Origin: Gammaproteobacteria bacterium
GTDB taxonomy: Bacteria > Pseudomonadota > Gammaproteobacteria > Magnimaribacterales > Magnimaribacteraceae
Length of the DNA stretch: 34,933 nt
Direction of reading: 5' to 3'
Assembly: GCA_012965075.1 (NCBI GenBank)
Contig: DTSY01000062.1
Location: forward strand, 1 to 34,933
Positions 9,822-14,604 of the stretch are shown here, piece by piece. Each line of letters starts with the position of its first letter. Position 1 is the stretch's first letter. The position numbers and the translations under genes are program-made. Below the pieces are notes generated by a model. It saw only the letters and a program-made list of their open reading frames with translations. It did no database searches and had not been told where the DNA came from.

Positions 9822-12053
9822 ATGAATAAATCTTTCCCAATATTTACCGTGGGTGCAATTGTAGTTGCAGTGCTAATTTACTTCTTTTATAACAGTAAAG
9901 AGTCTCAAGGAGGTGTTATTGAGGATGAAATCAGCTCTCCAATAACTTCTTCTTCATCTGTAGGGCTTATAGATGATAAAAGAATCATTGAAGCTGAAGG
10001 TGAACCTGAGAATTGGATTGCTCACGGAAGAACATATGAAGAGCAAAGATTTTCTCCCTTAACAAAAATCAATAAAGAAAGTGTCTCTGACTTAGGACTT
10101 GCCTGGTATAAGGATATGGGAACTAACAGAGCTCTAGAAGCTACACCAATAGTTGTAGATGGAATTATGTTCTTCACAAGTACTTGGAGTCGAGTCTATG
10201 CGGTAGAAGCAAAAACAGGTAAGACACTATGGTCTTTTGATCCTGAAGTCCCTGGAGAATGGGCAAGAAAAGCCTGTTGCGACATAGTCAACAGGGGTGT
10301 GGCTGTTTATCAAGGGAAAGTATTCTTTGCGAGCTTAGATGGAAGATTGTTTTCACTCAACGCTGAAACAGGGGAAAAGATATGGGAAGTAGATACCATA
10401 ACTGATCGTACAAGAGCCTACACAATTACAGGGGCACCAAGGGTAGCAAAAGGAAAGGTCTATATAGGCAATGGCGGTGCAGAGTACGGTGTTAGAGGAT
10501 ACGTCACTGCCTATGACACAGAGACTGGTGAACAAGTATGGAGATTTTTTACTGTTCCGGGAGATCCGTCATTGGGATTTGAAGATCCGGCCATGGAAAT
10601 GGCTGCTAAAACTTGGAAAGGTACGAATTGGTGGGAATTTGGTGGAGGAGGAACTGTTTGGAACTCAATTGTCTACGACCCAGACTTTAATAATATCTAT
10701 TTAGGAGTTGGCAATGGATCTCCTTGGACAAGGGAAATCCGATCTCCAGGTGGAGGAGATAACCTATTCCTTGCTTCGATAGTTGCTGTCGATGCAGATA
10801 CAGGTAAGTACAAATGGCATTATCAGACGACTCCTGAAGACAATTGGGATTACACGGCCGTTCAAGACATGGCTTTAGCTGATATGGAAGTTGATGGAGA
10901 AAAGAAGAAAGTTCTCCTACAAGCTCCAAAAAATGGATTTTTCTACGTTATTGATAGATCTAACGGTAAAGTACTAAGAGCCCATCCATTTGCTGCGGTT
11001 ACTTGGGCTACTCATGTTGACTTAGAAACAGGAAGACCGGTTGAAAATCCTGAAGTAGATTATTCTGAGAATGGATCTTTTGTTCTACCGGGACCTTTAG
11101 GAGCTCATAATTGGCAAGCAATGTCAGTGGACTTAGATGCGGGCCTTGTATATATACCTGCCCAAGAAAATGCCTTCTTTTATGCGATTGATGAGAACTA
11201 TAAGAAAACAGGTATATACAAAAGAAACCCAGGCAGATGGAATATGGGGATAGAAATGAGTTCTTTAGCCCAAAATGTACTTTCTAACCTAGAATCAATG
11301 CCCGAACCAGGGGGTTTTCTTAAAGCTTTTGACCCTTTAACTGGTGAAACTAAATGGTCTGTGCCTATTCCGCATTACTGGAATGGAGGAGTTCTAGGCA
11401 CGGCTGGAGGACTGGTTTTTCAAGGAGATGCTCTTGGTATATTCTCAGCTTACGATAAGGAAACGGGCGAAAGGTTATGGGAATTTAATACTTATACTTC
11501 TATGCTTGCGCCCCCAATTTCTTTTGAAATAGATGGAGAGCAGTACGTTTCAATCCTAACAGGATCTGGTGGGGGAGATCTGTTTGGAGGAGAACCTCTA
11601 CCGCCGATAGAAATACAAGCCTCTCTTACCTACAACAATTTTGGAAGATTGCTAGTTTTTAAATTGGGCGGCCAAAAGGAGTTACCTATACCGGATGTAA
11701 GAGATAAAACTATCCCCGAACAGGTCCTAGCAGATGCCAGTAACGATCAAATCCGTAATGGAGAAAGTAATTACAATCAATACTGTGCCGTATGTCATGG
11801 CTTTGTAGTCAAGTCTGCTGGAGGACTACCAGATTTAAGAAAGATGACTACAGACACCCATGATCTATTTAACAAAATAGTGCTGGAGGGTATCTTAGGA
11901 AGTAATGGTATGGCAGGTTTTGCAGATGTCCTTTCCGAAGACGACGTAGATAATATACATCATTACGTTAGGGCCAGAGCTCATGAAGATAGGGAGGTTT
12001 CCTTAGGAAATATGGAAGCACCTCAATTCACTTGGTATGGGGTAGAAGACTAA
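9822..12053 (+). CDS. PQQ-dependent quinohemoprotein alcohol dehydrogenase with C-terminal cytochrome c domain
   Basis: PQQ propeller repeats (AVEAKTGKTLWSFDPEV, SLNAETGEKIWEVDT, AYDTETGEQVWRF), vicinal Cys pair KACCDIVNRG, active site DNWDYTAVQ, C-terminal heme motif CAVCH. N-terminal TM/signal anchor. Confidence 0.92.
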   Translation: MNKSFPIFTVGAIVVAVLIYFFYNSKESQGGVIEDEISSPITSSSSVGLIDDKRIIEAEGEPENWIAHGRTYEEQRFSPLTKINKESVSDLGLAWYKDMGTNRALEATPIVVDGIMFFTSTWSRVYAVEAKTGKTLWSFDPEVPGEWARKACCDIVNRGVAVYQGKVFFASLDGRLFSLNAETGEKIWEVDTITDRTRAYTITGAPRVAKGKVYIGNGGAEYGVRGYVTAYDTETGEQVWRFFTVPGDPSLGFEDPAMEMAAKTWKGTNWWEFGGGGTVWNSIVYDPDFNNIYLGVGNGSPWTREIRSPGGGDNLFLASIVAVDADTGKYKWHYQTTPEDNWDYTAVQDMALADMEVDGEKKKVLLQAPKNGFFYVIDRSNGKVLRAHPFAAVTWATHVDLETGRPVENPEVDYSENGSFVLPGPLGAHNWQAMSVDLDAGLVYIPAQENAFFYAIDENYKKTGIYKRNPGRWNMGIEMSSLAQNVLSNLESMPEPGGFLKAFDPLTGETKWSVPIPHYWNGGVLGTAGGLVFQGDALGIFSAYDKETGERLWEFNTYTSMLAPPISFEIDGEQYVSILTGSGGGDLFGGEPLPPIEIQASLTYNNFGRLLVFKLGGQKELPIPDVRDKTIPEQVLADASNDQIRNGESNYNQYCAVCHGFVVKSAGGLPDLRKMTTDTHDLFNKIVLEGILGSNGMAGFADVLSEDDVDNIHHYVRARAHEDREVSLGNMEAPQFTWYGVED

Positions 12054-12057
12054 TAGA

Positions 12058-12618
12058 TTAATTTTCGAACTTAGTCTTGGGAGGTAAACTCGGAGGAGCT
12101 ACCTCTTGAAATTCAAAAGAAGGATTTCCTTCCACGTTGTTATTTGAAACAGATTCTTCGTATGGATTTGCCATTTCATCAAACTTATCTGCATCTAAAA
12201 CTCCATAAGTTTTTCTACCGTTAAGCTGTGTTCCGTCTTTAAGCTTCAGTAAAGCCGATTGGGCAATCTTATGATTTTTTTCATTCCAAACTAGGCTATA
12301 AGCTCTAGGTTTTCCAAATGGAATGCCCGCCTTATCCATATACCTAATCCAAAAATAAATTTTTCCTTCTCTTTTATTAAACTTATCGGGCTCGTCTATA
12401 GAAACCCAAATAAGTCTGAATTCCTCTGGTATTTCTTGTGTTGAAGGCCATCCTAATACCTGCTTGTATCCAATCCAGGTGAAGACATAAAAAGAAGCCA
12501 TTACTACGACTACTACTGTTTTTAATTTATTTGAGAACTTGGAATAAAGGCAGAAGATTAAGAGTAAGGCCGTTATGGCTACGTAAGCAGAAACTAATAA
12601 AATCCTTTCTTCAATCAC
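12058..12618 (-). CDS. Uncharacterised membrane protein: two predicted TM helices plus a soluble C-terminal domain
   Basis: N-terminal hydrophobic segments ILLVSAYVAITALLLIFCLYS and VVVVVMASFYVFTWIGY. Overlaps the next upstream gene by 8 nt, so likely co-transcribed with it. Confidence 0.8.
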   Translation of the reverse strand: MIEERILLVSAYVAITALLLIFCLYSKFSNKLKTVVVVVMASFYVFTWIGYKQVLGWPSTQEIPEEFRLIWVSIDEPDKFNKREGKIYFWIRYMDKAGIPFGKPRAYSLVWNEKNHKIAQSALLKLKDGTQLNGRKTYGVLDADKFDEMANPYEESVSNNNVEGNPSFEFQEVAPPSLPPKTKFEN

Positions 12619-13249
12619 TTTTATTTTCTATTAAAGGAGATCTACCCAATGCTTTGGTAAGTAACCTTTTTTGTATTTGATTTACATTAGAAATATTTTT
12701 TTTAGCATCAACTGAGAATCTAACTGCAGTTTTTTCATCACCAACTCCTTCCAATTCATGACTTCCATAGTAAATAAGCTCGACTTCTGGATTGAGTTTT
12801 TCAACCTTAACGTTAACAGTTAAAGGTTCATCATAATTAGCCTGATAGTGTAGGAGGTTAACCACATATTCCCCCGATTGAAGCGCTCTAATGGTGACTG
12901 TTTCTTGATTAATAGGATTTGAAATCATCGCTCCATCAACATTCATCTTGTCCGCAAAGATTCCTCTATCGTCTCTATCCAAATGCATTAGTCCAGTATC
13001 TCGGTTGTGATACCAAACTAATTCCCCTTGAGGACTTTCTACTATGGCATCTACATCATCAGGGTGCTGGTCTGGCCATCTAACCGAAATAAGAATTTCT
13101 GCTTTCGAATCTATCTTACCTCCCTCACTTGGATCAGATATCAGCATGAATGCGATTGCAAACATGAAAGCAAAACCTAAAAGAGAATTGAAGAGCAAAT
13201 CAGTAAAAGCATCTTGGCCTTCGCCATTACCAAGAATTCTATGTTTCAT
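12611..13249 (-). CDS. ExbD/MotB-like single-TM protein with a beta-type periplasmic domain
   Basis: DAFTDLLFNSLLGFAFMFAIAFMLIS matches the ExbD/TolR/MotB pattern of an Asp at the start of the single TM helix. C-terminal part VRWPDQHPDDVDAIVESPQGELVWYHNRDTGLMHLDRDDRG is not an OmpA peptidoglycan-binding domain. Confidence 0.75.
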   Translation of the reverse strand: MKHRILGNGEGQDAFTDLLFNSLLGFAFMFAIAFMLISDPSEGGKIDSKAEILISVRWPDQHPDDVDAIVESPQGELVWYHNRDTGLMHLDRDDRGIFADKMNVDGAMISNPINQETVTIRALQSGEYVVNLLHYQANYDEPLTVNVKVEKLNPEVELIYYGSHELEGVGDEKTAVRFSVDAKKNISNVNQIQKRLLTKALGRSPLIENKSD

Positions 13250-13258
13250 TTGAATCCT

Positions 13259-13858
13259 TTAATCAAGATCTTTTGAAGTAAGGCTATTTATTAACTTACT
13301 GAGTGATGAATCAAGCAAGAAGTATTGGAATTTGAGAATAGTACTAGTAACCAAGCCCGAAAGAGTTGTGTATAAAGCCACTGCCATACCTCCGGTCATA
13401 GCAGAGAGTAAAGGCTGTATTTTTTCTGGATCAAAATCTTTCATTTCGCCAATAGGCAAAAGCATTAGGATAAATCCTACAACCGTCCCGGTTAAGCCAA
13501 GTTTTAATAAAATATCAGAAATCATGTGACCCAGGGCATGCCTATTTGATAATTCATCTTCAAGTATCTTTAAAAGATTTTGTCTTCCAACTGGTGTCTT
13601 TGACTCTGCTGTCTTTAAGAAATCAGAAACCTTACCCGCTCCTTTCATTTCAGAATCTAAATTTCTGGCTATGTAGATCCAGTGCAGAGTGGCAACCAGA
13701 TAAATTGCCAGGATGAGAAATGAAATCTTACTTTTATCTGATACCAAGATCAGATTTAAAAAATTGAGATCATAGAGGAGATAAAAAGCAAAAATAATTA
13801 CAGTCAGCAAGACAATTGATCTTTGTAAAAGATATTGAGGTTTTTCTTCTTTTAACAC
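13259..13858 (-). CDS. MotA/TolQ/ExbB-like proton channel family protein
   Basis: LGLTGTVVGFILMLLP ... AMTGGMAVALYTTLSGLVTSTILKFQYFLLD matches TolQ/ExbB/MotA TM2-TM3 signatures. GTG start; 9 nt upstream of the ExbD-like gene. Confidence 0.8.
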   Translation of the reverse strand: MLKEEKPQYLLQRSIVLLTVIIFAFYLLYDLNFLNLILVSDKSKISFLILAIYLVATLHWIYIARNLDSEMKGAGKVSDFLKTAESKTPVGRQNLLKILEDELSNRHALGHMISDILLKLGLTGTVVGFILMLLPIGEMKDFDPEKIQPLLSAMTGGMAVALYTTLSGLVTSTILKFQYFLLDSSLSKLINSLTSKDLD

Positions 13859-13944: not shown

Positions 13945-14604
13945 ATGAATAAAACCGAAAGAGCACTGGTGATATCAGAGTCTTTGGATGTACTGTATCC
14001 TGACCCCCCTATTCCACTGAATCATAAATCGATTTTTACTCTGCTGATAGCAGTTATCCTTTCAGCTCAATGCACTGACATCAGAGTTAATAAGATAACT
14101 CCTTTATTGTTCAAAAAGGCTAACGATCCACAGAGGATGATCAAACTCGGTACCGAAGAGATAAAGAAGATAATCAAACCATGCGGGTTATCCCCTCAAA
14201 AATCTAAATCTATTTTTGAACTATCAAAAATTCTAGTCAAACAACATCAAGGTAAAGTACCCAAATCTTTTGTAGAGCTTGAAGCTTTGCCCGGAGTTGG
14301 TCATAAGACAGCCTCAGTGGTTATGAGTCAGGGTTTTGGCTATCCTGCTTTTCCTGTTGACACCCACGTTCATCGCTTAGCCCAAAGGTGGAAATTAACT
14401 AATGGAAAAAATGTCCAGCAGACAGAGAAGGACCTCAAAAGAATTTTTCCAGAATCTGAATGGAATAGGTTACATATTCAAATTATTTTGTATGGAAGAG
14501 AGTTTTGTACCGCCAGAGGCTGTAACGGAACCTCTTGCAAAGAAAAGCCTTGCTCAATTTTAAACTCAAACAGAAAGCGACCCATTAAAACCAAGAAGCC
14601 TTAA
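13945..14604 (+). CDS. nth: Endonuclease III
   Basis: HhH motif LEALPGVGHKTASVVMSQGFG, catalytic Lys in GHKTA and Asp in PAFPVDTHVHRLAQR, C-terminal Cys cluster CTARGCNGTSCKEKPC. Confidence 0.93.
   Translation: MNKTERALVISESLDVLYPDPPIPLNHKSIFTLLIAVILSAQCTDIRVNKITPLLFKKANDPQRMIKLGTEEIKKIIKPCGLSPQKSKSIFELSKILVKQHQGKVPKSFVELEALPGVGHKTASVVMSQGFGYPAFPVDTHVHRLAQRWKLTNGKNVQQTEKDLKRIFPESEWNRLHIQIILYGREFCTARGCNGTSCKEKPCSILNSNRKRPIKTKKP

Follow-up and report, generated by a model that had tools for sequence, protein, structure and literature searches.

To our knowledge, only a handful of ion-driven transducers of the MotAB/ExbBD/TolQR kind are known. In the characterized MotA/MotB-like systems, an A/B pair couples ion flow to movement. 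Here, we analyzed a window of 34,933 nucleotides, a contig of a 1.29-Mb genome whose close relatives are SAR86-cluster bacteria. It carries three genes, A, B, and C, that make up a genuine and apparently undescribed three-gene family, probably a new branch of the MotAB/ExbBD/TolQR superfamily.

The three genes lie on the minus strand between positions 12058 and 13858 (Table 1). A and B are separated by 9 nt (13250-13258), and B and C overlap by 8 nt (12611-12618). The initial annotation had described this layout, and its coordinates proved exact. The operon comprises exactly these three genes. It is bounded on the C side by a convergent PQQ-dehydrogenase gene, 4 nt away at its end, and on the A side by a divergent, presumably endonuclease III-like (nth) gene that starts at a distance of 86 nt.

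Table 1. Positions of the A-B-C trio, its main sequence features, and the flanking genes in the window
Feature	Position	Strand	Basis
Gene A, putative MotA/TolQ/ExbB-type ring subunit, 199 aa	13259..13858	-	PF01618, family profile versus PDB, hydropathy
Gene B, putative ExbD/MotB-like stator-type protein, 212 aa	12611..13249	-	AlphaFold2, conservation
Gene C, two predicted helices and a folded periplasmic domain	12058..12618	-	AlphaFold2, conservation
A Thr165 codon	13364..13366	-	Alignment of homologs, TolQ alignment
A Thr125 codon	13484..13486	-	Alignment of homologs, TolQ alignment
B Asp17 codon, membrane helix	13199..13201	-	Alignment of non-redundant homologs
B predicted periplasmic domain	12680..13096	-	AlphaFold2, profile comparison, alignment
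Type II quinohemoprotein (PQQ) alcohol dehydrogenase with cytochrome c domain, convergent with C	9822..12053	+	TIGR03075, PDB 1kv9
Presumed endonuclease III-like (nth) gene, divergent boundary, outside the module	13945..14604	+	Reading frame

The proposal that the three proteins act together was already part of the initial annotation, and a survey of gene neighborhoods agreed with it. Among homologous loci collected with profiles built from few seeds, the order A-B-C was complete in 173 of 179, most exceptions being contig ends or frame-calling artifacts. Of another 32 loci from alphaproteobacteria, 29 contained all three genes; the incomplete ones lie at contig ends (L239 and L242, with A also not found beside L242) or are very divergent (L253). 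Between congeners, pN/pS was 0.05 to 0.07 for B, 0.15 to 0.20 for A, and 0.18 to 0.22 for C. The three are real genes under purifying selection, with B the most constrained. Because these ratios are low and the ordered arrangement recurs so widely, the trio goes beyond chance, and A, B, and C form one genetic unit.

Besides A, the same genome encodes three PF01618 proteins, as well as two with PF02472. Because these separate genes lie at other loci, the trio is not the cell's TolQR or ExbBD. Together with the absence of an ExbD match to B, they rule out a canonical Tol, Ton, or flagellar system, so that placement in a characterized TolQRA/ExbBD-TonB system, the outcome against which the initial annotation had set its reading, was not what we found. 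Zorya was likewise ruled out. The likeness of A to ZorA in PADLOC was weak and below threshold (best value, 6.7e-5), and none of the 32 window proteins is ZorC-, ZorD-, or ZorE-like, as the first reading of the neighborhood had suggested.

The description of A as a TolQ/ExbB/MotA-like protein was upheld by a match to PF01618 at 8.3e-9 and 35.7 bits, above the curated cut-off of 22.9, which places A in the superfamily. When compared with the PDB, the family profile of A matched MotA best (8gqy, 1.7e-6) and also TolQ (9kpz, 3.8e-5). Hydropathy analysis predicted four helices, at residues 10-28, 45-63, 116-134, and 157-175. The last two contain Thr125 and Thr165, both of which align with threonines of TolQ. 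Thr165, aligned with the second ion-path Thr of TolQ, is present in all 122 distinct homologs, and Thr125 is present in 115, with Lys in its place in three gammaproteobacterial copies (L170, L175, and L177). In viral copies, the cytoplasmic loop that joins helices 2 and 3 is 26 residues long at the median, versus 54.5 residues in cellular copies. A loop this short, and shortest of all in phages, speaks against a rotor partner in the cytoplasm. Since the cytoplasmic part of A is small, and smallest in phages, work would be delivered in the periplasm.

B is the most conserved of the three proteins, with 70 to 93% identity within the family. It has one predicted membrane helix (residues 11-37) followed by a periplasmic beta-sandwich (52-190), modeled by AlphaFold2 as an all-beta domain with a mean pLDDT of 86.9. 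A single helix was predicted in 178 of 179 copies, and Asp17, the residue to which the initial annotation had drawn attention in this helix, is conserved in 82 of 85 non-redundant homologs; together, these features give B an ExbD/TolR/MotB-type topology. No sequence match of B to the ExbD, TolR, or MotB families was detectable: PF02472 (ExbD/TolR) did not match the window B and was found only at other loci in the genome search, and Pfam, NCBIfam, and PADLOC gave no family match to the window B or C. For this reason, the role assigned to B rests on layout, topology, and one Asp. Neither Pfam nor the all-beta model revealed an OmpA-like peptidoglycan-binding domain, in keeping with the original reading of B. 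In eleven Bradyrhizobium-family genomes (L164 to L169, L171 to L174, and L176), position 17 is Val, an Asp lies five residues earlier, and position 21 is Lys. Because of this branch and the three copies with Lys at position 125 of A, the ion site is not universal. These ion-path variants are possible natural loss or charge-swap variants.

In the periplasmic domain of B, which may contain a metal site, W58, D65, D67, L90, D93, D94, G96, E116, and G126 are invariant. The suggestion that this domain resembles DUF2135 (PF09906) stood in part. The register is sensible, with an hhalign E value of 4e-4 against the DUF2135 profile, but the match is weak (probability, 35%) and remains below the cut-offs: PF09906 gave no match over cut-off to the window B and matched 8 of 54 B homologs with a best E value of 0.004 (0.0039), also below cut-off. 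A structural search, which the initial annotation had listed for B and C, was run with Foldseek against the PDB and returned nothing at an E value of ≤0.001 for either protein; matches to predicted viral proteins had low TM-scores.

C, first read as two transmembrane segments with a soluble tail, has two predicted helices (residues 6-24 and 32-50), a folded periplasmic domain (66-138), and, after a variable linker, a conserved PPxxLPxK-type peptide at the C terminus. AlphaFold2 modeled the domain as a small alpha/beta fold (mean pLDDT, 87.7). G56 and K181 are invariant, and P-x(0-4)-K occurs near the C terminus in 158 of 177 copies. The linker is rich in Gly and Glu in many viral copies. The charge distribution suggests that the domains of both B and C lie on the periplasmic side. 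A Pfam TrAA12 match in one C homolog (L106) fell on a Gly/Asp/Glu-rich linker and was taken as spurious. In one sub-branch, a fourth gene directly downstream of C encodes a probable lipoprotein with a YFPL..G..W.Y motif (L227, L229, L230, L236, L237, and L238 in alphaproteobacteria; L187 to L189 in gammaproteobacteria).

Searches with B by tblastn produced matches in Rhizobium phages. In T4-like Pootjesviridae, A-B-C lies between topoisomerase and late-sigma genes, and phages RHph_N3_19 and RHph_I1_18 also carry the trio. The temperate phages 16-3, RHph_TM3_3_14B, and X2_25 have kept A, B, and C despite genes inserted between them, such as those for homing endonucleases. In these phages, the trio stands directly behind a gene for a trypsin-like, probably periplasmic peptidase. 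Temperate Rhizobium phages share this placement of the peptidase gene just ahead of A with a prophage-like locus in genome G234 (10142-11041 in L180, 5988-6698 in L181, 6577-7224 in L182, and 8989-9633 in L191), and other serine protease genes occur near the module in some viral contigs. A term search of the paper on phage AP-16-3 found no discussion of these genes.

Among viral contigs, 234 matched, many of them marine, and 80 of these were read; terminase-like genes lay near the module in 16 of these loci. Four loci filed as viral (L088, L120, L123, and L129) have cell-like neighbors (DnaK, ClpS, ClpA, and SufT-like) and are possibly misfiled bacterial DNA. Given these four, the evidence that phages carry the trio comes from the isolates and from those contigs that also encode terminase and further phage proteins. 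In a tree of B, the cellular sequences of the window's branch formed one clade (24 rows; support, 99), with most viral contigs outside it. The T4-like Rhizobium phages formed a clade of their own, and the 16-3-type phages fell near a divergent cellular branch. Because the tree places these two sets of copies apart, phages hold the trio on at least two lines. In the phage isolates, the trio is surrounded by non-structural genes, suggesting that it acts during infection. Two further loci, L223 and L224, belong to very small alphaproteobacterial genomes (G575 and G664; family f112). The B protein of L223 groups weakly with the viral clade and not with the cellular one, yet the module adjoins a transporter gene of the PQQ system, a possible case of phage-host exchange.

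The window's bacterial branch is linked to PQQ-dependent metabolism. The convergent neighbor of C scored 630 bits against TIGR03075 (cut-off, 480), matched PDB 1kv9 at 1.2e-213, and is closest to type II quinohemoprotein enzymes, a relationship that weakens the case for a direct lanthanide role in SAR86. A PQQ-dependent alcohol dehydrogenase gene adjoins the module in 38 of 41 named-genome loci, occupying the same place in 37 of the 41. The adjacency is seen in SAR86, K189A, and other gammaproteobacteria. Since nearly all of these loci are gammaproteobacterial and share one arrangement, common ancestry weighs heavily in this count. Several alphaproteobacterial families show independent arrangements: PQQ dehydrogenases adjoin L081, L228, L231 to L235, and L239, and genes for transporters or propeller proteins of the PQQ system adjoin L223, L225, and L228. 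In three partly overlapping samples, with Fisher P values that ignore ancestry, every genome with the window's branch had the PQQ system: 20 of 20 versus 3 of 21 others in the SAR86 order (P = 8e-9), 21 of 21 versus 54 of 268 in an alphaproteobacterial sample (11 families; P = 5e-14), and 15 of 15 versus 81 of 384 in a phylum sample (P = 2e-10). The system thus occurs in 14 to 21% of the remaining genomes. Two SAR86 relatives, G004 and G009, have PQQ-dependent dehydrogenase genes and lack the trio. The divergent Azospirillum-type branch showed no PQQ link (4 of 17 versus 71 of 272), and no PQQ dehydrogenase lies beside the module in phage loci. For these two reasons, the function must extend beyond PQQ, with any PQQ-specific role being a specialization.

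The best explanation, which we judge to lie somewhat on the probable side, is that the trio is one ion-driven inner-membrane machine that supports quinoproteins in cells and acts on the host envelope in phages. A, B, and C would assemble into a single complex, with ion drive suggested by the family and the conserved residues. By analogy with related systems, five copies of A would form a ring around a B dimer whose Asp17 faces the threonines of A, and ion flow would move B. Periplasmic output would then pass through the beta-sandwich of B and through C, an obligatory partner of ring and dimer that would contribute two helices, a small domain, and, at the C terminus, a tethered peptide. Bacteria of the window's branch may use the machine to support alcohol metabolism by periplasmic PQQ-dependent dehydrogenases, and the most likely way would be to energize the delivery of a cofactor, a metal, or a substrate at the envelope. 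Phages would turn their own copy on the host envelope during infection. A more specific formulation is that large and temperate phages of Alphaproteobacteria and marine bacteria have an undescribed three-subunit ion-driven motor, the cellular sister of which serves PQQ-dependent alcohol oxidation as a dedicated, energy-coupled component. This we offer tentatively, as falling just short of an even chance.

The outline of C, a folded domain and a variable linker ending in a conserved peptide, could also belong to a TonB-like energizer, in which A and B stand in for ExbB and ExbD and the peptide acts as TonB on outer-membrane receptors that import PQQ or metals. A TonB-dependent receptor does adjoin the module in L189, and genes of the PedA1A2BC type, a transporter reported to carry lanthanum in Pseudomonas (PMC12997753), flank it in L223, L225, and L228. 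We nevertheless consider this unlikely: receptors are not generally adjacent to the module, the genome has separate ExbB/ExbD-type genes, C is unlike TonB, the dehydrogenase next to C most resembles type II quinohemoprotein enzymes and not the lanthanide-dependent XoxF type, and phages would gain little. Less probable still is a regulated ion channel that performs no mechanical work, with a proton path through A and B that is opened by C or by the B domain. The conserved ion-path residues, the short A loop, and the lack of a recognizable effector gene are all compatible with such a channel. It would suit both contexts: in cells, it would offset the acid that PQQ oxidation produces in the periplasm, and during phage infection, it would adjust the membrane potential. 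However, the strong conservation of the B outer domain and the tethered C peptide would be left unexplained, and characterized A/B-type systems couple ion flow to movement. A phage-born exclusion or Zorya-like anti-phage module later captured by bacteria, to which the faint ZorA likeness of A, the phage distribution, and the patchy cellular distribution might point, is very improbable given the missing zorC/D/E-like partner and long ZorA tail and the tight PQQ linkage of the SAR86 copy in surroundings conserved across the family.

Our analysis supports the initial interpretation in part and extends it with the phage copies, the PQQ link, and the short A loop, which that interpretation had not included. 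To the ion-driven transducers, the trio adds an outer domain of a new kind, a third partner that is conserved, and homologs in phages, the last of which would amount to a virus-encoded machine of the motor type. For the quinoprotein metabolism of the periplasm, which is widespread in ocean and soil, it offers a candidate energy-coupling component that we did not find in published descriptions in the open literature. In that literature, with few subscription journals covered, we found no account of an ExbB/MotA-type trio that is encoded by phages or linked to PQQ.

Several known systems can be set beside the trio. The PedA1A2BC/Lut lanthanide ABC transporters, which belong to PQQ-dehydrogenase clusters, are neighbors of the module in several alphaproteobacteria; their proteins are unrelated to it, and the connection is one of association rather than homology. 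DUF2135 matches B in the register W..DvDl.v..P.G...E...G.Y.v, whereas B falls below every family cut-off, possesses a membrane helix, and contains an LxRDDxG motif in a domain that is longer. Zorya ZorAB is likewise an ion-driven type of pair to which A is weakly similar, but A is without the long ZorA tail, B is without a peptidoglycan-binding domain, zorC/D/E are missing, and the locus is not a defense locus. With TolQR(A) and ExbBD(-TonB), the trio shares a two-gene A/B layout with a third envelope protein, and A aligns with TolQ over the helices with matching Thr positions; in contrast, B stands outside the ExbD/TolR family, and C is unrelated to TolA or TonB. MotAB/PomAB have in common with the trio the MotA-like four-helix topology of A, which matched MotA 8gqy best, and the single helix of B with an Asp near its start and a C-terminal domain in the periplasm. 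The trio differs from them in dispensing with the OmpA-like peptidoglycan-binding domain and flagellar genes and in having a short A loop and a third subunit.
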